Part shown: positions 53,289 through 63,136 of the stretch, piece after piece
How the letters are laid out: each line of letters opens with the position of its first letter
How positions within the stretch are numbered: position 1 is the stretch's first letter
Assembly: GCF_003448965.1 (NCBI RefSeq)
Contig: NZ_QRGC01000033.1
Span: 1 to 64,000, forward strand
Direction: 5' to 3'
DNA: 64,000 nucleotides
From: Oceanicella sp. SM1341
GTDB lineage: Bacteria; Pseudomonadota; Alphaproteobacteria; Rhodobacterales; Rhodobacteraceae
The notes under the pieces: generated by a model
What the model saw: only the letters and a program-made list of their open reading frames with translations
Told to the model about the DNA's origin: nothing
Databases searched by the model: none
Program-made: the position numbers and the translations under genes

Positions 53289-53519
53289 TCACGGCTGATC
53301 ACCGGCATGCTCGTCCGATTGCTTTGAAGCACTGCACTGCACTTTATTCCTTTCATCCCATGTTTCAAGCTCCTCCATCGGATAGAGCACGGCCTTACCT
53401 ACCTTGATAAACGATGGCCCAATTTTCTGGGTACGCCAGTTTCGAAGTGTCCCCAACGACACGCCGCCGCGATAGCGCTCGGTGACTTCTTCAGGCGTGA
53501 GAAATTTAGTCTCTGACAT
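53289..53519 (-). CDS. Excisionase-like / AlpA-type helix-turn-helix protein
   Basis: 76 residues from ATG 53519 with a perfect AGGAGG Shine-Dalgarno. MSETKFLTPEEVTERYRGGVSLGTLRNWR and KIGPSFIKVGKAVLYPMEELETW are the MerR-like HTH_17 excisionase domain that binds DNA to direct excision or regulates integrase. Small, basic wing and placed beside the insertion junction, as xis genes often are. The integrase partner is not in the window. Tail KVQCSASKQSDEHAGDQP is unstructured. Confidence 0.82.
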   Translation of the reverse strand: MSETKFLTPEEVTERYRGGVSLGTLRNWRTQKIGPSFIKVGKAVLYPMEELETWDERNKVQCSASKQSDEHAGDQP

Positions 53520-53558
53520 ACTGCCTCCTGGGTTCGGCCGCGCTTTTGGGTAGCGTAG

Positions 53559-53613
53559 CCGATATCGGTAGATGGATGAGCGCGAGGTTCTTTCCTTCGA
53601 GTGATCGTCACTC
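53559..53613 (-). promoter_or_regulatory. Two palindromes upstream of the excisionase-like gene (operator candidates)
   Basis: CCGATATCGG (53559-53568) is a perfect palindrome 40 bp before the start, flanked by near-symmetric TA-C and CTA, and GAGTGA-TCG-TCACTC (53599-53613) is a perfect 6+6 inverted repeat 80 bp before it. Both could bind the HTH product or another element repressor. Confidence 0.4.
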
Positions 53614-53698
53614 TGGGGCATCGCTGAACTTGCCGTTGTCCAGTTGGTCACGCTGATGCACAGAGATCGTTGCAACACCTGAGTCCGTGAAGGAAGGC

Positions 53699-53930
53699 CT
53701 ACTTCACAGGAGTAGGGAGTACGGATATCTGGGGATAAATATTGGCGGATGTGCTGGTCACGCAGCAGGTTCGGTCCACGTGCTGCAAGCACGCAAGCAG
53801 CTTGCTGAGGTGGGGCTGAACTTCGTCGGTTACCGGTCGGTCGCAGAGGATACACGGGCGAGTGAGCGAAACACCTTTCCACCGATCCCAATAGAGTGAG
53901 AGTGCGGACGGGTTTTCCGTGACGGGTTGA
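53699..53930 (-). other. Open reading frame without a start codon, CxxC-bearing
   Basis: On the minus strand a frame runs open from about 53930 to the stop CTA at 53699-53701: it reads SLYWDRWKGVSLTRPCILCD, then RPVTDEVQPHLSKLLACLQH, and ends QISVLPTPVK. No ATG, GTG or TTG precedes it, so it may be a decayed gene or coincidence. The rest of 53520-53916 has no supported gene; a 70-codon plus-strand frame at 53687-53899 has no homology. Confidence 0.3.
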
Positions 53931-53966
53931 GGGCTGGAGGAGAGGCCTCCGGCGCCCGTCGCGGAG
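53917..53966 (+). ncRNA. Structured leader 1 (ardC)
   Basis: Outer stem CCGTGACGGG (53917-53926) with CCCGTCGCGG (53955-53964), ten pairs with one U-G. Inner stem GCTGGAGG (53933-53940) with CCTCCGGC (53946-53953), loop AGAGG. The GGAG Shine-Dalgarno at 53963-53966 starts in the outer stem, so folding would hide it. Same architecture as leader 2, with compensating base changes in the inner stem. Confidence 0.75.
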
Positions 53967-53973
53967 AACCGCG

Positions 53974-54936
53974 ATGTCCAGACACAACCGCAAAACCGGC
54001 ACCCAGCGCGACCGGACCAATCTCTATTCCGAAATCACCGACAAGATCATCGCCGAACTGGAGGCCGGCCGGGTGCCATGGGTCCAGCCCTGGGGCACGG
54101 CCGCCGCGAAGGCGCCGCTGTCCATGCCGCACAACGCCTCGACCGGCCGGACCTATTCCGGGATCAACGTGCTGCTGCTCTGGGGCGCCGTCATCGAGCG
54201 CGGCTTTTCCGGCCAAAGTTGGTTGACCTTCCGCCAGGCGCTGTCGCTCGGCGGCAATGTCTGCAAGGGCGAGCGCGGCACTACTGTCGTCTATGCCGAT
54301 CGCTTCGTGCCGGAGGATGCGAAGCGCCGCGCGCGCGAGACCGGCGAGGACGCCCAGGCGATCCCGTTCCTGAAGCGCTTCACCGTCTTCAACACCGACC
54401 AGTGCGAGAACCTGCCCGAGGATGTCGCGACCGCCGCACCGCCGGTGCCGAAGGGTCTGATCGAACCGCGTGTCGAGGCGTTGATCGCGGCGACGGGGAT
54501 CGACTTCCGGATCGGCGGCAATCGCGCCTTCTACGTGCCGGCCCATGACTATGTGCAGGTGCCGCCGCCGCAAGCCTATTTCGAGCCGATCAACTGGCAC
54601 CGCACCGCCCTGCACGAACTCGGCCACGCCAGCGGCGCGCCTCATCGTCTCAACCGCGATTTCTCCGGCTCGTTCGGCTCGAAGAAATACGCCTTCGAAG
54701 AGCTGATCGCCGAGATCAACGCCGCCTTTTGCTGCGCCTCGCTCGGCATCACGCCGACCGTCCGGCATGCCGATTACATCGGCTCCTGGCTCGACGTCCT
54801 GCGCGAGGACAATCGCGCCATCGTCCGCGCCGCCAGCCAGGCGAGCAAGGCTGCCGACTGGCTGCTGGCCTTCGCTCCGGACCATGCCAATCAAACGATC
54901 CCGGTCGAACCTGCTTGCGACAGGAGGGTGGCATGA
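53974..54936 (+). CDS. ardC: ArdC family anti-restriction protein (ssDNA-binding plus zincin)
   Basis: 320 residues. N-terminal ArdC domain (about 15-140): RTNLYSEITDKIIAELEAGRVPWVQPW, YSGINVLLLWG and KGERGTTVVYADRF. C-terminal zincin with HELGH at 214-218 and Glu of AFEELIAEI near 243 as third ligand. ArdC binds single-stranded DNA and shields incoming DNA from host restriction during conjugation; the protease part is a metallopeptidase by motif. Start 53974 is set by the structured leader and GGAG. Stop overlaps the next ATG (ATGA). Confidence 0.93.
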   Translation: MSRHNRKTGTQRDRTNLYSEITDKIIAELEAGRVPWVQPWGTAAAKAPLSMPHNASTGRTYSGINVLLLWGAVIERGFSGQSWLTFRQALSLGGNVCKGERGTTVVYADRFVPEDAKRRARETGEDAQAIPFLKRFTVFNTDQCENLPEDVATAAPPVPKGLIEPRVEALIAATGIDFRIGGNRAFYVPAHDYVQVPPPQAYFEPINWHRTALHELGHASGAPHRLNRDFSGSFGSKKYAFEELIAEINAAFCCASLGITPTVRHADYIGSWLDVLREDNRAIVRAASQASKAADWLLAFAPDHANQTIPVEPACDRRVA

Positions 54937-55310
54937 TCCTCTTGACCGACGAGTTGCGCGACCGGCTGCTGGCCAATGGACGGCAACGCGATGTCGACCA
55001 TGTGCCAGTGGTGAAATTCTTCAATCCCGTCGGCGCGGGCACCTGGCTTATCACCGAGATGGAGCCGGACGGCGACATGCTGTTCGGGCTCGCCGATCTC
55101 GGCTTCGGCTGTCCTGAGATGGGCTCGTGCAGCCTCGCGGAGTTCACGTCCATCTCTCTGCCCTTCGGTCTTGGCATCGAGCGGGACGTCCTCTTCGAGG
55201 GTCTATTTCCGCTGTCGACCTATGCCGAAGCGGCCCGGCTAGCCGGCAGCATCGTTGAGAGCGAGCGCTTGCTCAGGGCCGCCGCGGTGTCGCTGCGAAA
55301 CAGGCAGTAA
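54933..55310 (+). CDS. DUF2958 domain protein
   Basis: 125 residues. LLTDELRDRLLANGRQRDVDHVPVVKFFNP and GTWLITEMEPDGDMLFGLADLGFGCPEMG are typical DUF2958, a small acidic family found only on plasmids, ICEs and phages next to ArdC or antirestriction genes. Strong AGGAGGG precedes ATG 54933. Function unknown; probably an accessory to the anti-restriction or transfer start-up functions. A strong terminator follows. Confidence 0.9.
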   Translation: MILLTDELRDRLLANGRQRDVDHVPVVKFFNPVGAGTWLITEMEPDGDMLFGLADLGFGCPEMGSCSLAEFTSISLPFGLGIERDVLFEGLFPLSTYAEAARLAGSIVESERLLRAAAVSLRNRQ

Positions 55311-55328
55311 CATTTCCCACCCCATCGG

Positions 55329-55376
55329 CGCAGCCCTCTCACTCCGGCTCAGGAGAGTGAGAGGGCTGCGCCTTTT
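55329..55376 (+). terminator. Intrinsic terminator after DUF2958
   Basis: CGCAGCCCTCTCACT (55329-55343) with AGTGAGAGGGCTGCG (55356-55370), a perfect 15-bp stem, followed by CCTTTTTC. Ends the ardC-DUF2958 unit; the second leader begins two bases after it. Confidence 0.9.
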
Positions 55377-55377
55377 T

Positions 55378-55427
55378 CCGTGACGGGTTTGAGGTCGAGA
55401 GAGAGGCTCTCGGCGCCCGTCGCGGAG
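55378..55427 (+). ncRNA. Structured leader 2 (ParB-like gene)
   Basis: Outer stem CCGTGACGGG (55378-55387) with CCCGTCGCGG (55416-55425), identical to leader 1. Inner stem GTCGAGAG (55394-55401) with CTCTCGGC (55407-55414), loop AGAGG again. Inner pairs differ from leader 1 in several places while pairing is kept. Shine-Dalgarno GGAG (55424-55427) overlaps the stem's 3' end; ATG follows at 55437. Confidence 0.78.
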
Positions 55428-55436
55428 TAAATCACG

Positions 55437-57539
55437 ATGGCACCTGCCGTTCAGAAAATAGCCCTCAGCGCCTCGCGCGACATTCCCTTCAACAAGCTCG
55501 TTCTCTCCCAGTCCAACGTCCGGCGCCTGAAGGCCGGCGTCTCGATCGATGAACTGGCCGAGGACATCGCCCGCCGTGGTCTCCTGCAGAGCCTCAACGT
55601 CCGGCCGGTCCTCGATGACGACGGCACGGAGACCGGTATGTTCGAGATTCCCGCCGGCGGCCGCCGATATCGGGCGCTCGAACTTCTGGTGAAGGCCAAG
55701 CGCCTCAACAAGACCGCGCCGGTGCCCTGCGTGGTCCGCGAGGCCAGGACCGACATCTCGGCGGAGGAGGACTCGCTTGCCGAGAATGCTCATCGCGCTG
55801 CGCTGCACCCCCTCGACCAGTTCCGGGCTTTCAGGACTCTGCGCGATCAGGGTCTCACCGAGGAGGAGATCGCCGCGCGCTTCTTCGTCTCGACCGCCAT
55901 CGTCAAGCAGCGGCTCAAGCTCGTCACCGTCTCGGAGACGCTGCTCAATGCCTATGCCGAGGACGAGATGACCCTCGATCAGCTCATGGCCTTCACCGTC
56001 TCATCCGACCATGCGCGCCAAGAGCAGGTCTGGGAATCGGTCCAGCATAGCTGGTCGAAGGAGGCCTATCAGATCCGCCGGATGCTGACGGAGAACACCG
56101 TCCGTGCGTCTGATCGGCGGGTCCGCTTCGTCACCACCGACGCCTATGAGGCGGCCGGCGGCATCGTCCTTCGCGATCTCTTCCAGGACGACGACGGTGG
56201 CTGGATCGAGAACGTCCCGCTGCTGGAGCAGCTCGTCGCCGACAAGCTGAAGGCCGAAGCGGAGGCCATCGCCCGCGAAGGCTGGAAGTGGATCGAGGTC
56301 GCGGCCGACTTCCCCTATGGCCACACCCGGGGCCTCCGGTCGATCACCGGCACGTCCGCCGATCTGACCGAAGACGAGCGCGCCCAGCGTGAGGCGCTGC
56401 GCAACGAGCTCGACGAACTCGAAGCCGAATATGCCGAGGCCGACGAACTGCCCGACGAAGTCGATGCGCGGCTCGGCGAGATCGAGGATGCCCTCGAGGC
56501 CTTCGAAAGCCGTCCCGTCCACTACGACCCGGCCGAAATCCCGCGTGCGGGCGCCTTCGTCAGCATCCGCCACGATGGCCAGCTCTCGGTCGATCGCGGC
56601 TATGTCCGGCCCGAGGATGAAGTCGCCGTCGGCGATACCGAAGGGAACACCCACGGCGGTGAGGATGGTGCCGGTGATCCGACCGGGACAGTGCAACGCA
56701 CCGTCATCACCATCGGCGGAGAACAGTCGGGTCAGGACGATGACGAGGATGTCGTCAAGCCGCTGCCCGAGCGTCTGCTGACCGAGTTGACGGCGCACCG
56801 CACGCTTGCGCTGCGGGACGCGTTGGCGAGCAACCCGCATGTCGCGATGACTGCGCTAATCCACAAGCTTGTTCGCGATACCTTCCAGCACGTCTCGTCG
56901 ACGGGGTGCCTTGAAGCCTCGGTTCGACACATCTTCTTCTCCGTTCAGGCCGAGGATCTGAAGGACAGCGCGTCGGCCAAGGCGATCGACGAGCGCCAGG
57001 AAGCCTGGCAAGCCGATCTGCCGACCGATGACGATGCGCTCTGGGCGAAGATTGACGGTCTCGACGATGCGAGCCGTATGGCGCTTCTCGCCCATTGCGT
57101 CTCCTTCGGGGTCAATGCGCTCTACGAGAAGGCCAATCCCTATGGCGCTGGCCCGACCACGCATGGCGTGCAACAGCGCATCCACGAGGCGGACCGTCTT
57201 GCCCGTGCCGTCGGTCTCGACATGGTGGCGGTGGGCTGGCGGCCGACGGTCGACAACTATCTCGGCCGGGTCACCAAGCCGCGCATCCTCGAAGCGGTGC
57301 GCGAGGCGAAGAACGAGGCGACCGCCCAGCTCATCGACCATCTGAAGAAGGGCGACATGGCAAAAGAGGCCGAACGCCTCCTCGCCGACAGCGGCTGGCT
57401 TCCCGAGCCACTGCGCCTGGCTCCGCTCGACGCGGACGTCGCTGAGCAGCCCGACGACGAGACCGACACGCTGCCCGCGTTCCTCACCGAGGACGACGAG
57501 GCCGAAGACGAGGAGCAGCAGCCGGTCGCGGCGGAATAG
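55437..57539 (+). CDS. ParB/KorB-like protein with a long acidic C-terminal region
   Basis: 700 residues. ParB N-terminal (Srx-like) domain at about 18-130: LVLSQSNVRRLKAGVSIDELAED, then EIPAGGRRYRALELL and ENAHRAALHPLDQFRAF. KorB-like HTH at about 140-170: TEEEIAARFFVSTAIVKQRLKL. The rest (over 450 residues) is helical, acidic and not like partition ParB; it contains SAEEDS-like Glu clusters and a DDDGGWIENVP stretch. Element-encoded ParB-like nucleases and regulators of this size occur in ICEs. No parA is next to it, so a regulator or nuclease role is as likely as partition. Expressed behind leader 2. Confidence 0.88.
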   Translation: MAPAVQKIALSASRDIPFNKLVLSQSNVRRLKAGVSIDELAEDIARRGLLQSLNVRPVLDDDGTETGMFEIPAGGRRYRALELLVKAKRLNKTAPVPCVVREARTDISAEEDSLAENAHRAALHPLDQFRAFRTLRDQGLTEEEIAARFFVSTAIVKQRLKLVTVSETLLNAYAEDEMTLDQLMAFTVSSDHARQEQVWESVQHSWSKEAYQIRRMLTENTVRASDRRVRFVTTDAYEAAGGIVLRDLFQDDDGGWIENVPLLEQLVADKLKAEAEAIAREGWKWIEVAADFPYGHTRGLRSITGTSADLTEDERAQREALRNELDELEAEYAEADELPDEVDARLGEIEDALEAFESRPVHYDPAEIPRAGAFVSIRHDGQLSVDRGYVRPEDEVAVGDTEGNTHGGEDGAGDPTGTVQRTVITIGGEQSGQDDDEDVVKPLPERLLTELTAHRTLALRDALASNPHVAMTALIHKLVRDTFQHVSSTGCLEASVRHIFFSVQAEDLKDSASAKAIDERQEAWQADLPTDDDALWAKIDGLDDASRMALLAHCVSFGVNALYEKANPYGAGPTTHGVQQRIHEADRLARAVGLDMVAVGWRPTVDNYLGRVTKPRILEAVREAKNEATAQLIDHLKKGDMAKEAERLLADSGWLPEPLRLAPLDADVAEQPDDETDTLPAFLTEDDEAEDEEQQPVAAE

Positions 57540-57622
57540 CCCGCAGCCGTCACTCTTCCTGCACACCAAAACCCAACTTGCGCCCGGCCGATGTGCCGGG
57601 GTTCTCGTTTCAGGAGTCCGTC

Positions 57623-58039
57623 ATGGCCGACTATTTCACCCATTTCTCCTGCGTGCTCGACGTCGGCACACCCGACAACGCCGCCCGCGCGCTCGACCTC
57701 TACAATCGCCTGTGCGAGGAAAACGCATCGGAAGATCCGCCCTCGGAAGGGTTCGATCTTTCCATCGTTCCCGAACATGGCGGCACCAGCCTCTGGATAC
57801 GCGACGATGTCACCGGCGACCCGGAGCATGTCATCCAGTTCGTCAAACGCTGCGCTGCCGCATTCGGCCTCACCGGGCTGTGGGGCTTCCAATACGCCAA
57901 CACCTGCTCGCGCCCGCATCTCGATGCGTTCGGCGGCGGGGCTCACGTTCTCGATCTCGCCACCGGCGAGACCGTGGCGTGGACCTACACCGGAGGCTGG
58001 CTTGCCGAGGTGCTCGACGGAGGTGATCCTGATGCCTGA
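57623..58039 (+). CDS. Uncharacterised element protein
   Basis: 138 residues from ATG 57623 with CAGGAG. MADYFTHFSCVLDVGTPDNA, then an acidic helix, then SIVPEHGGTSLWIRDDVTGDPEHV, WGFQYANTCSRPHLDAFGGG and TGGWLAEVLDGGDPDA. The segment with Gly-Gly and Trp residues looks like a compact alpha/beta protein; no domain known to me. The next gene's ATG (58032) lies inside its last codons. Probably part of the ParB-to-helicase transcript, as no terminator was seen. Confidence 0.72.
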   Translation: MADYFTHFSCVLDVGTPDNAARALDLYNRLCEENASEDPPSEGFDLSIVPEHGGTSLWIRDDVTGDPEHVIQFVKRCAAAFGLTGLWGFQYANTCSRPHLDAFGGGAHVLDLATGETVAWTYTGGWLAEVLDGGDPDA

Positions 58040-58676
58040 GATCATCGAAACCACCGTCTATCGGCTCGATGAGCTCTCGGACGCCGCCAAAGACGCGGCC
58101 CGCGCCTGGTATCGGCAGACTGGCTTCGACCATGACTGGTTCGAGTTCGTCTTTGACGACTTCGAGCGCATCTGTGCCATCCTCGGCGTCAAACTGCGCA
58201 CCGTGCCGGCCCGCCTCTACGGCGGTGGCACAAGGCAAAAACCCTGCATCTTCTTTTCCGGGTTCTGGAGCCAGGGCGACGGGGCGTGCTTCGAGGGACG
58301 CTATCGCTATGCCAGCGCCGCACCCCGCAAGATTCGGGGCTATGCGCCGAAGGATGACGAGTTGCACCGGATCGCCGATGCCCTGCAGGCGATCCAGCGG
58401 CGCAACTTCTACCAGCTCCATGCTGGTATCGTTCATAGTGACCGCTACTACCATGAATATTGCATGGCGATCGCGGTCGAACGCGATAGCCCAACCTGGC
58501 AGGACATGACGGCTGATGCGGAAGATGCCGTGATCGAGCCGCTTCGTGACCTCGCGCGTTGGCTCTATCGCCACCTCGAACGCGAATATGAGTATCTGAC
58601 CTCGGACGCGGCCGTCGACGAAACCATTGCCGCGAACGAATACACCTTCACCGAGAGTGGACGTCGGTTCGGATAG
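58032..58676 (+). CDS. Uncharacterised element protein
   Basis: 214 residues. Begins MPEIIETTVYRLDELSDAAKDAARAWYRQ (a helical, acidic N-terminus), then ILGVKLRTVPARLYGGGTRQKP, a mixed central part with Tyr and Trp residues (FFSGFWSQGDGACFEGRYRYA), and LYRHLEREYEYLTSDAAVDE near the end. Similar proteins in ICEs are sometimes annotated antitoxin-related, but no toxin is paired here and no TA domain is visible. Starts 8 bp inside the preceding gene. Function unknown. Confidence 0.72.
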   Translation: MPEIIETTVYRLDELSDAAKDAARAWYRQTGFDHDWFEFVFDDFERICAILGVKLRTVPARLYGGGTRQKPCIFFSGFWSQGDGACFEGRYRYASAAPRKIRGYAPKDDELHRIADALQAIQRRNFYQLHAGIVHSDRYYHEYCMAIAVERDSPTWQDMTADAEDAVIEPLRDLARWLYRHLEREYEYLTSDAAVDETIAANEYTFTESGRRFG

Positions 58677-58713
58677 TCGAGGAGTTCGACCTCCCCTGAG
58701 AGGGAGAGGGGGG

Positions 58714-58770
58714 CCGTGACGGGTTTGAGCCCGTCCGGAGGAGAGAGAGCACCGGACCGGCTCGTCCGTC
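58714..58770 (+). ncRNA. Structured leader 3 (methylase-helicase gene)
   Basis: Opens with the same CCGTGACGGGTTTGAG. Outer GACGG (58718-58722) with CCGTC (58766-58770). Inner arm GAGCC (58727-58731), C, GTCCGG (58733-58738), loop, CCGGAC (58752-58757), C, GGCTC (58759-58763): eleven pairs around one C-C mismatch and a purine-rich 13-nt loop. No AGAGG pentaloop, and ATG is 26 nt beyond, so this is a divergent member. Confidence 0.6.
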
Positions 58771-58795
58771 TTCCGCTCTCCTTAAGGTTCTCACC

Positions 58796-61700
58796 ATGAC
58801 CAATACTTCCGCTCGCGCCGCCGCTCCGGTCGCGCCGCTCCCGCTAGCCTCCGATACCCGACCTGCTTCGGTCATCCTTGCCGCCGCAGAACAGCTTCTC
58901 CTACATCTCGAAAAGGGCGGGCCCATCGATGCCGCGACATTGCGCGCGGCGATGGAGTCTGCCTTCGGCGCCTCCGATGCCACCGGCGCCTGGGACTGGA
59001 AAACCGCCTACGACGCCTGCGAGGCGGCGACCGTCCTTTTTCTGCGCAAATACGGAAAGGCGCTTTTCCGCAAAGCAGGTTCTCCGGCTCCGCGGCTTTC
59101 CGCCGTCTCGAAGATTGCCGCGCTCCTTCCGACCCATACCCGCCGGTCCGAGGAAGCCCAGAGCTTCCAGCAGTTCTCGACCCCGATCCCGCTCGGCCTC
59201 GTCGCGGCCCATGCCGCCGCCGTCACCGCGGCGGATCGCGTTCTCGAACCCTCGGCCGGGACCGGGCTCCTCGCCATTCTGGCCGAGATCGCCGGCGGCT
59301 CGCTCGCCGTCAACGAACTGGCTGAAGCGCGCGCCGACCTGCTCACCTCCCTCTTTCCGGCAGCGGATATCACCCGCTTCGACGCCGCGCAGATCCACGA
59401 CCATCTCGATCCGGCGCTGATCCCGAGCGTGGTGCTGATGAACCCGCCATTCTCGGTCATGGCCAATGTCGAGGGCCGCGTCGCCGATGCCGCCTTCCGC
59501 CACATCGCATCGGCGCTGGCGCGCCTTGCGCCCGGCGGGCGGCTGGTGACGATCACCGCCGCCAGCTTCGCGCCAGATAATCCGGCCTGGGCGCCATCCT
59601 TCGCGCGCCTGCAGGAACGCGGCCGTGTCGTCTTCTCCGCCGCGATCGACGGCTCGGCTTACGCCAAGCACGGCACGACGATCTCCACCCGACTGACCGT
59701 CATCGACAAGGTTCCCGCCGATGATCCGACAGCATTTCCCGCATCGCCGGGTGTCGCGCCGGACACTGCGGCATTGCTGGCCTGGGTCGACGAGCGCCTG
59801 CCGGAGCGACTTCCCGTCGATCCTCCGGTGGCGGTGCCTGTGCCAGCGACCCCGACCCCTGGCAGCGTGCGCGGCTATCTGAACCGCGCCGCCAAGACCA
59901 CGTCGCCCGCGCCGACGGCCGATCCCGAGGCACAGCCGCTCGCCTATGAAGCCATCGAGTCGCAGTCCGGTGACACCGCACGGCTCTCGGACGCGATCTA
60001 CGAGGAATACGGGCTTCAGGCGATCCGCATTCCCGACGCGCAGCCCCATCCGACGAAGCTGGTACAGTCGGCTGCGATGGCGTCCGTCGCCCCACCCAAG
60101 CCGAGCTATCGGCCGCGTCTGCCGGTCAATATCGGCGAGTTGCTGTCCGGGGCGCAGCTCGAAACCGTCATCTATGCCGGCGAGGCCCATTCCGACCATC
60201 TCGCCGGAACCTGGGCGGTCGACGCCACCTTCGATGTCGTGTCCGCTGCGGCCGAAGACGCACAGAACGCGATCCGCTTCCGCCGCGGCTTCATGATCGG
60301 CGACGGCACCGGCGTCGGCAAGGGCCGCCAGTCGGCCGCGATCATCCTCGACAACTGGCTTCAGGGCCGCCGCAAGGCGGTCTGGATCTCCAAGTCCGAC
60401 AAGCTGCTCGAGGACGCGCAACGCGACTGGTCGGCGCTCGGGATGGAGCGACTGCTGGTCACGCCCTTGTCGCGTTTCCCGCAGGGCAAGCCGGTCGCGC
60501 TGGCGGAAGGCATCCTATTTACGACCTACGCCACACTACGGTCCGATGACCGCGGCGAAGGGGTTTCGCGCGTCAAGCAGATCGTCGAATGGTTGGGCTC
60601 CGACTTCGATGGGGTGATCATTTTCGACGAGGCGCACGCGATGCAGAACGCCGGTGGCGGCAAGGGAGAACGCGGCGATGTCGCAGCCAGCCAGCAGGGC
60701 CGCGCGGGCCTGCGCCTGCAGCACGCGCTGCCGGATGCGCGCATCGTCTATGTCTCCGCGACCGGCGCCACCACGGTCCACAATCTCGCCTATGCCCAGC
60801 GGCTCGGCCTCTGGGGCGGCGAGGAGTTTCCCTTCGCGACACGCGCCGAATTCGTCGAAGCGATTGAAGCTGGCGGTGTCGCCGCGATGGAGGTCCTCGC
60901 CCGCGACCTCAGGGCGCTCGGTCTCTACACCGCCCGCTCGCTCAGTTTCGACGGTGTCGAATACGAACTGGTCGAGCACGAACTGACCCCCGAGCAGACT
61001 CGCATCTATGACGCCTATGCCGGCGCCTTCGCCATCATCCATAACAACCTCGATGCGGCGATGGAGGCGGCCAACATCACCGGCGGTGACGGGACGCTCA
61101 ACCGGCAGGCAAAATCCGCGGCGCGCTCGGCTTTTGAGTCCGCCAAGCAGCGTTTCTTCGGGCACCTGCTCACCAGCATGAAGACCCCGACGCTGCTCCG
61201 CTCGATCGCCGCCGATCTGGAGGCGGGCCATTCGGCGGTCGTCCAGATCGTCTCGACTGGCGAGGCGCTGATGGAACGCCGCCTGGCGGAGCTGCCGACC
61301 GAGGAATGGAACGACGTCCGGGTGGACATCACGCCGAGGGAATATGTCCTGGACTATCTTGCCCATTCCTTCCCGGTGCAGCTCTACGAGCCGTTCACCG
61401 ACAGCGAGGGCAATCTGTCGTCACGCCCGGTCTATCGCGATGGGCAGCCGGTCGAGAGCCGTGAGGCGGTCACCCGCCGCGATGACCTGATCGCCAGGCT
61501 CGCCAGCCTGTCGCCCGTTCCCGGCGCGCTCGACCAGCTCGTGCAGCATTTCGGCACCGACATGGTCGCCGAAGTCACCGGGCGCTCGCGCCGCATCGTC
61601 AGCAAGCGCAATTCCGGCGGCATGGATCGTCTTGCCGTCGAGACCCGCGCCGCCGCCGCCAATCTGGCGGAGACCCAGGCCTTCATGGACGATACCAAGC

Positions 61701-63136
61701 GCGTCCTGATCTTCTCGGATGCCGGCGGAACCGGCCGCAGCTACCACGCCGACCTTTCGGCGCGGAACACTCGGCGGCGCGTCCACTATCTGCTCGAACC
61801 GGGCTGGAAGGCCGATGCCGCCATACAGGGGCTCGGCCGCACGCACCGCACCAACCAGGCGCAGCCGCCGCTCTTCCGTCCGGTTGCGACCAACGTCAAG
61901 GCGGAGAAGCGCTTCCTTTCCACCATCGCCCGCCGTCTCGACACGCTGGGCGCGATCACCCGCGGACAGCGCCAGACCGGCGGTCAGGGCCTGTTCCGGC
62001 CCGAGGACAATCTGGAAAGCGCCTATGCCCGCGATGCGCTGCGTCAGCTCTATCTCCTGATCGTGCGCGGCAAGGTCGAGGGCTGCTCGCTCGATCGGTT
62101 CGAGACCGCCACCGGCCTGAAGCTGGTGGACGCCAATGGCATCAAGGACGACCTGCCGCCCATCACCACCTTCCTCAACCGCCTGCTGGCGCTCACCATC
62201 GAGCTTCAGGGCATCCTGTTCACCGCCTTCGAGCAATTGCTCAACGCCAAGATCGAGGGCGCCGTCGCGAGCGGCACTTATGACGTCGGGCTCGAGACGC
62301 TGACGGCCGAGCGGTTCACCGTCACCGGGTGCGAGACCATCTACACCCATCCGGGCACCGGCGCGGAAACCCGGCTGCTCACGATCACGCAGCGCGACCG
62401 TAACCGTCCGCTCTCGCTTGCCGACGTCTTGGATCATCTCGACGATCCGCGTGCGCGGCTTCTGATCAACGAACGCTCGGGTCGGGCCGCGGTCCAGATC
62501 CCCACGACCAGCGTCATGCTCGACGATGGAGAGGTGGAACGCCGCGTCCGTCTCGTCCGCCCGATGGAGGCCCACAACCTCCCCGTCAAGATGATGGGCG
62601 AGACCCATTGGATGGAGGCTGATCGCGGGGCGTTCGCTGCCGCCTGGGAGAACGAAGTTGCGGAGGTGCCGGCGTTTTCCGAGAGCACCATCCACGTCGT
62701 GACCGGCCTGTTGCTGCCGATCTGGAAGCGCCTGCCCAACGACTCCACCCGTGTCTACCGGCTCCAGACTGATGACGGCGAGCGCATCATCGGCCGCAAG
62801 GTCCCGCCTGCCTGGGCGGCCGCGGCGGCCGCGACCGGCAGCACGACCATTTCCGCGAATGACGCCTTCACCGCGCTGATGGACGGACGCACGATCCTCG
62901 ACCTTACCGAAGGGCTTCAGCTTCGCCGCAGCCGCGTCATGGGCGCCAACCGCATCGAGCTCTCCGGCTTCTCCGACACGATGCGCGAGCGGCTCACCGC
63001 CTATGGTCTCTTCCACGAGATCATCTCATGGAAGCTCAGGATGTTCGTCCCTGTCGACGCCTCCGGTCCGGTGGTCCTCGGCCGCGTGCTCGATCGCTTC
63101 CCGGTCGAGCGCATCGGCGAGCGGGAGGCAGCGTGA
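58796..63136 (+). CDS. Methyltransferase-helicase fusion, strawberry notch family
   Basis: 1446 residues. First third: N6-adenine-methylase-like domain with SAM motif LEPSAGTGLLAIL (about 151-157) and catalytic VLMNPPFS (216-220). Middle: strawberry notch SF2 helicase with Walker A GDGTGVGKGRQ (502-511), DEAH (611-614), GATTVHNLAYAQRLGLW, and motif VI-like QGLGRTHRTNQ. A long C-terminal region ends EIISWKLRMFVPVDA. The fusion is known from plasmids and ICEs of alphaproteobacteria, function unknown. It could methylate incoming or replicating DNA while remodelling it. Leader 3 precedes it. Stop overlaps the next start (TGATG). Confidence 0.9.
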   Translation: MTNTSARAAAPVAPLPLASDTRPASVILAAAEQLLLHLEKGGPIDAATLRAAMESAFGASDATGAWDWKTAYDACEAATVLFLRKYGKALFRKAGSPAPRLSAVSKIAALLPTHTRRSEEAQSFQQFSTPIPLGLVAAHAAAVTAADRVLEPSAGTGLLAILAEIAGGSLAVNELAEARADLLTSLFPAADITRFDAAQIHDHLDPALIPSVVLMNPPFSVMANVEGRVADAAFRHIASALARLAPGGRLVTITAASFAPDNPAWAPSFARLQERGRVVFSAAIDGSAYAKHGTTISTRLTVIDKVPADDPTAFPASPGVAPDTAALLAWVDERLPERLPVDPPVAVPVPATPTPGSVRGYLNRAAKTTSPAPTADPEAQPLAYEAIESQSGDTARLSDAIYEEYGLQAIRIPDAQPHPTKLVQSAAMASVAPPKPSYRPRLPVNIGELLSGAQLETVIYAGEAHSDHLAGTWAVDATFDVVSAAAEDAQNAIRFRRGFMIGDGTGVGKGRQSAAIILDNWLQGRRKAVWISKSDKLLEDAQRDWSALGMERLLVTPLSRFPQGKPVALAEGILFTTYATLRSDDRGEGVSRVKQIVEWLGSDFDGVIIFDEAHAMQNAGGGKGERGDVAASQQGRAGLRLQHALPDARIVYVSATGATTVHNLAYAQRLGLWGGEEFPFATRAEFVEAIEAGGVAAMEVLARDLRALGLYTARSLSFDGVEYELVEHELTPEQTRIYDAYAGAFAIIHNNLDAAMEAANITGGDGTLNRQAKSAARSAFESAKQRFFGHLLTSMKTPTLLRSIAADLEAGHSAVVQIVSTGEALMERRLAELPTEEWNDVRVDITPREYVLDYLAHSFPVQLYEPFTDSEGNLSSRPVYRDGQPVESREAVTRRDDLIARLASLSPVPGALDQLVQHFGTDMVAEVTGRSRRIVSKRNSGGMDRLAVETRAAAANLAETQAFMDDTKRVLIFSDAGGTGRSYHADLSARNTRRRVHYLLEPGWKADAAIQGLGRTHRTNQAQPPLFRPVATNVKAEKRFLSTIARRLDTLGAITRGQRQTGGQGLFRPEDNLESAYARDALRQLYLLIVRGKVEGCSLDRFETATGLKLVDANGIKDDLPPITTFLNRLLALTIELQGILFTAFEQLLNAKIEGAVASGTYDVGLETLTAERFTVTGCETIYTHPGTGAETRLLTITQRDRNRPLSLADVLDHLDDPRARLLINERSGRAAVQIPTTSVMLDDGEVERRVRLVRPMEAHNLPVKMMGETHWMEADRGAFAAAWENEVAEVPAFSESTIHVVTGLLLPIWKRLPNDSTRVYRLQTDDGERIIGRKVPPAWAAAAAATGSTTISANDAFTALMDGRTILDLTEGLQLRRSRVMGANRIELSGFSDTMRERLTAYGLFHEIISWKLRMFVPVDASGPVVLGRVLDRFPVERIGEREAA

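Follow-up and report, generated by a model that had tools for sequence, protein, structure and literature searches.

Why would three separate genes of one inserted element carry similar sequences directly in front of their start codons? The question arises from a 64,000-nt stretch of Oceanicella sp. SM1341 DNA (GCF_003448965.1, NZ_QRGC01000033.1, positions 1-64,000, forward strand), referred to here as the window. A preliminary description had reported leaders upstream of ardC, a ParB-like gene and a methylase-helicase gene that begin alike and can fold. The opening that it gave for all three, CCGTGACGGG, was confirmed, with exact copies in the window at 53917, 55378 and 58714 only. We also found, as described, that the ardC and ParB-like leaders have an identical 10-bp outer stem (CCGTGACGGG/CCCGTCGCGG) and that their 8-bp inner stems keep an AGAGG loop while the pairs change in a compensatory manner (GCTGGAGG/CCTCCGGC in ardC versus GTCGAGAG/CTCTCGGC in the ParB-like leader). 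Compared by eye, these inner stems differ at five pairs, three with both partners replaced and two through a G-U exchange. The features are listed in Table 1.

Table 1. Leader elements and the genes that follow them in the window
Feature	Positions	Strand	Evidence
Type I leader RNA, ardC (full span of the model)	53885-53969	+	Model R1, 91.3 bits (partly by construction); alignment A1
AGAG-TG-AGAG box, 14 nt 5' of the stem (ardC leader)	53893-53902	+	Near-invariant across the 87 A1 rows
Outer stem 5' arm CCGTGACGGG (ardC leader)	53917-53926	+	Partner is 53955-53964
Inner hairpin GCTGGAGG-AGAGG-CCTCCGGC (ardC leader)	53933-53953	+	Changes on both sides in 7/8 pairs when homologues are compared
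Outer stem 3' arm CCCGTCGCGG plus AG (ardC leader)	53955-53966	+	Sequence; GG paired in model
Shine-Dalgarno GGAG of ardC	53963-53966	+	Sequence
ardC (ArdcN + MPTase-PolyVal)	53974-54936	+	Pfam PF08401, PF18818
Type I leader RNA of ParB-like gene	55346-55430	+	Model R1, 89.5 bits (partly by construction)
Box A (ParB leader)	55354-55363	+	
Outer stem (ParB leader)	55378-55387/55416-55425	+	
Inner hairpin (ParB leader)	55394-55414	+	
Shine-Dalgarno (ParB leader)	55424-55427	+	
Long perfect hairpin with TTTTT end, adjoining ParB leader stem on its 5' side	55327-55377	+	Predicted fold
ParB-like protein gene	55437-57539	+	Pfam PF02195, PF17762; tblastn to plasmids
Type II leader RNA of methylase-helicase gene	58697-58794	+	Model R2, 72 bits (leader included in model); alignment A2, pair counts
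Strawberry-notch-type methylase-helicase	58796-63136	+	Pfam PF13872, PF13871

A pattern scan of GTDB contigs matched at least 119 stretches. Among the approximately 80 loci listed, about 11 were chance matches lacking the box or the 3' arm, mostly from unrelated phyla; the remaining listed loci were alphaproteobacterial records (a few named only Proteobacteria) that carried the upstream box, stem, loop and GGAG. Plasmid records gave 131 matches to the ardC leader, 86 to the ParB leader and 13 to the helicase leader. Since the pattern scan alone would bias the sample, homologues of the ParB-like and helicase proteins were also drawn from 289 evenly drawn alphaproteobacterial genomes, and the DNA upstream of their genes was read. 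The leader stood directly before the start codon in all 21 ParB homologues with at least 49% identity and in one of the eight assessable homologues below that level; judged by the ParB homologues, it thus goes with the gene. Among helicase homologues with a readable start, about 15 of 19 had a leader of the helicase type (type II), and one further leader was degenerate. The final alignments comprised 87 nonredundant leaders of the ardC/ParB type (type I; alignment A1) and 26 rows of type II (alignment A2).

In the type I leader, an AGAG-N2-AGAG box and a spacer of ∼14 nt of variable sequence are followed by the outer stem [CU]CGUGACGGG, an asymmetric UUGAG(G) loop, an inner stem of 7 to 9 bp of free sequence closed by the AGAGG loop, and a 3' arm CCCGUC[AG][CU]GG that runs into AG. 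The box is nearly invariant in the 87 rows, and its distance to the stem is 13 to 15 nt in 162 of 170 leaders. The start codon lies 56 to 62 nt from the start of the stem in nearly all type I leaders. At the 3' edge the stem overlaps the Shine-Dalgarno GGAG, the GG being common to both, and the start codon follows 6 to 10 nt further on. The box 14 nt upstream and the overlap with the Shine-Dalgarno sequence are two features absent from the preliminary description.

The pairing was strongly supported by covariation. In A1, 96.9% of the pair cells were paired, versus 91.3% in shuffles and 34 to 47% in slid controls. Changes on both sides were found in 9 of 18 pairs, a number reached by none of 500 shuffles, and in 87 cells (25 in shuffles), again above all 500. 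The 22 leaders retrieved via the ParB protein alone were still 95.2% paired, with the outer-stem exchanges GAG/CTC and GGT/GGCC, and the family is therefore not an artifact of the search pattern. The earlier proposal of a conserved RNA, for which a covariance check on ten or more homologues had been suggested, was thus borne out with a model built from 87. The scores of the two window leaders under this model, R1 (91.3 and 89.5 bits), are partly due to construction because both are among its rows; the other 85 rows are independent.

The kind of pairs also indicated which molecule folds. The A1 pair cells comprised 1,286 Watson-Crick, 227 G-U, 23 A-C and 25 other combinations, and by pair column G-U exceeded A-C 13 to 3 (sign test, P = 0.011). 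RNAalifold gave -32.0 kcal/mol for the coding strand versus -5.5 kcal/mol for the antisense strand. This asymmetry argues for an RNA of the coding strand, rather than for a DNA palindrome or a template-strand hairpin. An inverted repeat acting at the DNA level, as an operator or promoter element common to the genes of the element, would suit the fixed 14-nt box-stem spacing with its variable spacer, as expected of a protein-DNA complex. It would nevertheless predict no strand bias, in conflict with the 10-fold excess of G-U over A-C, and it does not account for an inner stem in which pairing is maintained although the sequence varies freely. We therefore regard it as very improbable.

The type I leaders share a conserved two-storey hairpin of the coding strand immediately ahead of the start codon, and half of the Shine-Dalgarno sequence is paired in it. 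Individual type I cores had predicted folding energies of about -23 to -38 kcal/mol. G-U cells were concentrated at the Shine-Dalgarno end (the four pairs there had 130 among 348 cells, and the six distal ones 10 among 522), so that the base of the stem looks tuned to open. An RNA thermometer was ruled out since the GG of the Shine-Dalgarno sequence stays paired up to 70°C in the model; with the stem predicted to be closed up to that temperature, opening would need a helper. An intrinsic terminator or attenuator was likewise ruled out for the conserved hairpin, in which GGAG is followed by no T-run; none was seen after the type I stem in the homologue alignment. In the 80 nt upstream, the gene types had only the AGAG box in common, and a structure present in all of them was not found.

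The third leader fitted the earlier description only in part. The leaders of ardC and the ParB-like gene belong closely together in one family, and that of the methylase-helicase gene is related to them as a separate subtype: the AGAG box upstream, the 5' arm and a loop reading AGAGAG recur in it, but its fold differs. Under R1 it scored 28 bits, in a local and wrongly paired match, and it scored 72 bits under its own subtype model R2, which includes that leader. Since its homologues usually read CCGGGACGGG at the 5' arm, the presence of CCGTGACGGG in all three window leaders is partly coincidence. Type II folds as a longer single hairpin (AGAG/CUCU, CGGGA/UCCCG and UUGAGCCGG/CCGGCUCG, with a GAGAGAG loop) followed by GAGG. 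In A2, 87.7% of the cells were paired versus 83.2% in shuffles, cells changed on both sides numbered 44 versus 21, and the covariation score was higher than in any shuffle; the pair and pair-type counts were less clear, since 11 and 22 of 500 shuffles, respectively, reached them. Covariation is no test of the AGAG/CUCU helix, since this helix hardly varies. We conclude that type II has a covarying fold of its own, weaker than that of type I. Type II leaders were also found before an ArdB-type antirestriction gene (locus L267, Pfam PF03230) and before an uncharacterized pCHQ1 gene, and the cyanobacterial helicase homologues examined had no leader.

Do these leaders belong to an RNA family that is already known? 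The radC RNA, which the preliminary description had put forward, is linked with radC and anti-restriction genes, and genes of these kinds stand directly after the new leaders as well (ardC, ArdB and, in one case, a RadC-like gene). The likeness to the radC RNA is thus that of a leader common to mobile-element genes. The suggested membership was rejected: the radC model RF01754 gave no match in the window at its gathering cutoff (40 bits), none in 53500-59100 at an E value of ≤10, and none above the cutoff in the own genome and 40 relatives. In the reverse search, the new leader model did not match the true radC RNAs at five loci, its best score elsewhere in those loci being 7.1 bits. The folds differ too, the radC RNA being 149 nt long with several hairpins and CCCAGGcAGCC/CUUCAAGGCUgC, whereas the new leaders form a two-storey hairpin of unrelated sequence; in comparison with an alignment of true radC members, the leaders lack the hallmarks CCCAGGcAGCC...GGCUgC and the 3' CGCAUCcguuagCGC region. 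In the phylum draw, RF01754 hit just three genomes, all from a single genus that lies outside the class of the window. Since only the gene context is in common, we consider the radC RNA, which has been catalogued among the probable cis-regulatory RNAs of Proteobacteria (PMC2864571), to be an analogue in context and not a relative, and kinship has next to no chance of being correct.

STAXI is likewise a structured element, found close to genes for SSB, topoisomerase and anti-restriction proteins (PMC2864571). It folds as a tandem pseudoknot whose loops are UUCG, in contrast to the single two-storey hairpin with an AGAGG loop, and Rfam gave no STAXI match in the window, provided that its library includes STAXI. 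More generally, no Rfam 15 family matched in the window at gathering score. No description of the leader was found in the open literature, the 2017 set of 224 motifs lying outside that search. The family is thus new relative to Rfam 15, and earlier publication outside Rfam is possible.

R1 matched in 20 of the 289 evenly drawn Alphaproteobacteria and in 25 of 299 drawn Pseudomonadota, all of which belonged to the own group, the same family or the same class; no match outside the class was found among these 299 genomes. Phage records searched with the ardC leader gave no match. The leader is hence seen only inside Alphaproteobacteria, on plasmids and inserted elements. The genome of SM1341 itself has a second related element on contig C46, where leaders precede ardC, ParB, the helicase, an uncharacterized gene and a RadC-like gene, the leader of the last being degenerate (27.6 bits); a further leader is present on contig C40. 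One RNA family thus stands in front of several unrelated genes within single elements.

Taken over all loci, the genes after the leaders encode ArdC, ParB-like, methylase-helicase, ArdB, RadC-like and AlpA proteins and two uncharacterized families, as well as a gene fragment without a Pfam match that is presumably DUF932-like. The window element goes on with toprim, YAcAr and SSB genes. On pCHQ1 the same gene order is followed, on the same strand, by RepA, ParA, VirD2 relaxase and TraG/Trb. The ParB-like protein has full-length homologues of ∼28 to 34% identity, ParB/RepB/Spo0J proteins, on enterobacterial conjugative plasmids (F/IncI-like), and can be equated with YubM, the ParB encoded in the leading region of F. 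In the case of R388, the recipient and not the donor requires ArdC (PMC7213743), and plasmid leading regions are rich in anti-restriction, MTase and SSB genes (PMC11541004). By analogy with these other plasmids, the leader-bearing genes would be establishment genes.

The same parallels lend some appeal to a single-stranded DNA promoter of the Frpo/ssi kind, i.e., hairpins ahead of early-expressed anti-defense genes of conjugative elements (PMC11541004), in which a hairpin in the entering T-strand would let RNA polymerase begin transcribing the leading-region genes ahead of second-strand synthesis. The gene classes are those of other plasmids' leading regions, the action of ArdC in the recipient and the F/IncI-like homologues of the ParB-like protein agree with it, and the element also carries SSB and toprim genes. 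Frpo/ssi elements, however, are DNA with -35 and -10 elements on the T-strand, whereas the new leaders pair on the coding strand with G-U and showed no promoter elements: no -35/-10-like site at 9/12 was found in 53400-59000, and none occurred consistently upstream of the homologues. If the T-strand were the template, the G-U pairs of the coding strand (227 versus 23 A-C) would be C-A mismatches, and a transcript starting after the hairpin would lose the Shine-Dalgarno sequence, which lies in the stem. Such a promoter is therefore rather improbable.

For cis-regulatory RNAs, the expected marks are covariation beyond shuffled and slid controls, a fixed place in the 5' UTR and a consistent gene set, and all of these were observed. 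We favor, with a probability of roughly 0.6, a new cis-acting leader RNA that would control the translation (or the mRNA stability) of establishment and anti-defense genes on alphaproteobacterial conjugative elements; its place before the ardC, ParB-like and methylase-helicase genes suggests that these share one control step on the mRNA. The hairpin would limit ribosome entry, and a putative trans-acting factor, recognizing the purine box together with the AGAGG loop, would change ribosome access. The three genes and others like them would in that case be switched as a group, the most plausible moment being arrival in a new cell.

Within this cis-acting RNA reading, the nearest alternative would be a plain mRNA-stabilizing role, in which a constitutive 5'-end hairpin would guard the transcript from RNase E and nothing would switch. 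The very stable predicted fold, the lack of a T-run and the occurrence before several unrelated genes are all in line with it. We consider it unlikely since a stabilizer has no need for a near-invariant AGAG-N2-AGAG box at a fixed distance, for a near-invariant AGAGG loop or for a kept 5' arm sequence.

As to the factor, the cores of leaders of two genes in the same element were no more alike than those in different elements (0.803 versus 0.801, P = 0.37), with a small effect in the 30 nt upstream (0.690 versus 0.669), and hence there is no sign of coadaptation to an element-specific factor. Together with the class limit of the family, this makes an element-specific factor less likely than a conserved component of the host or a highly conserved protein of the elements; the factor would probably either occur throughout Alphaproteobacteria or vary very little among the elements. 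One candidate is the group of class-wide anti-Shine-Dalgarno small RNAs (alpha-r14/NfeR1, whose loops carry CCUCCUCCC; alpha-R8). They could read box and loop, whose purine-only sequences (GAGAG, AGAGG, GGAG) are of the complementary type, and they are spread through Alphaproteobacteria (PMC10746234; PMC12559287), in agreement with the class limit of the leader. Given that CCUCCUCCC would fit the box AGAGnnAGAG only in part, we judge this quite improbable. A broader version of the leader RNA reading, an establishment regulon at the RNA level in which the two-subtype family would keep anti-restriction, ParB-like, methylase-helicase and further entry genes low in a settled host until, in a fresh recipient, a class-wide host factor opens the leaders, is tentative and, in our view, doubtful.

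What is understood of anti-defense gene expression at entry comes mainly from enterobacterial plasmids, which use single-strand promoters, and a common leader RNA in alphaproteobacterial elements would point to a different, posttranscriptional solution. R1 and R2 together provide a sequence tag for anti-defense genes, including uncharacterized leader-bearing ones such as the MTFARSE-type gene.

Finally, an additional, terminator-like hairpin lies next to the stem of the window's ParB leader, the right arm of which holds the AGAG box. Similar extra hairpins, without a T-run, are present in several ParB homologues.

Many leaders of ardC and DUF932-like genes are preceded, at about -75 to -35 from the stem of the leader hairpin, by a second conserved stretch, ACCCCTTCTGCGGGGAGACCCCGCAACGCCCC, which could form two short, mutually exclusive hairpins. 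ParB leaders do not share this stretch. The ParB-like protein encoded in the window is itself a distant full-length homologue of ParB/RepB/Spo0J proteins from enterobacterial conjugative plasmids.

Another contig of the same genome, C46 (loci L204 and L205), carries a second element related to that of the window. Its genes comprise ardC, DUF2958-like, RadC-like, ParB, an unknown MTFARSE-type gene and the methylase-helicase gene, with each main gene preceded by its own leader. The MTFARSE-type gene is accompanied by a type I leader (the ardC/ParB-like form), and its family, for which no Pfam match was found, is a candidate establishment or anti-defence gene. Two adjacent ORFs on this contig resemble AbiEii/AbiEi and may represent a toxin-antitoxin pair of this type.

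Features and their coordinates
Feature	Location	Strand	Remarks
ParB-like protein	window 55437-57539		
Unknown gene family member, with homologues	L205:3511-4068		starts MTFARSETFRSIG..., about 185 aa
AbiEii/AbiEi-like ORFs	L204:14870-16118	reverse	

At two further loci (L250 and L117), leaders precede an AlpA-type gene and a PAPS reductase-like ORF, both outside the usual leader gene set.
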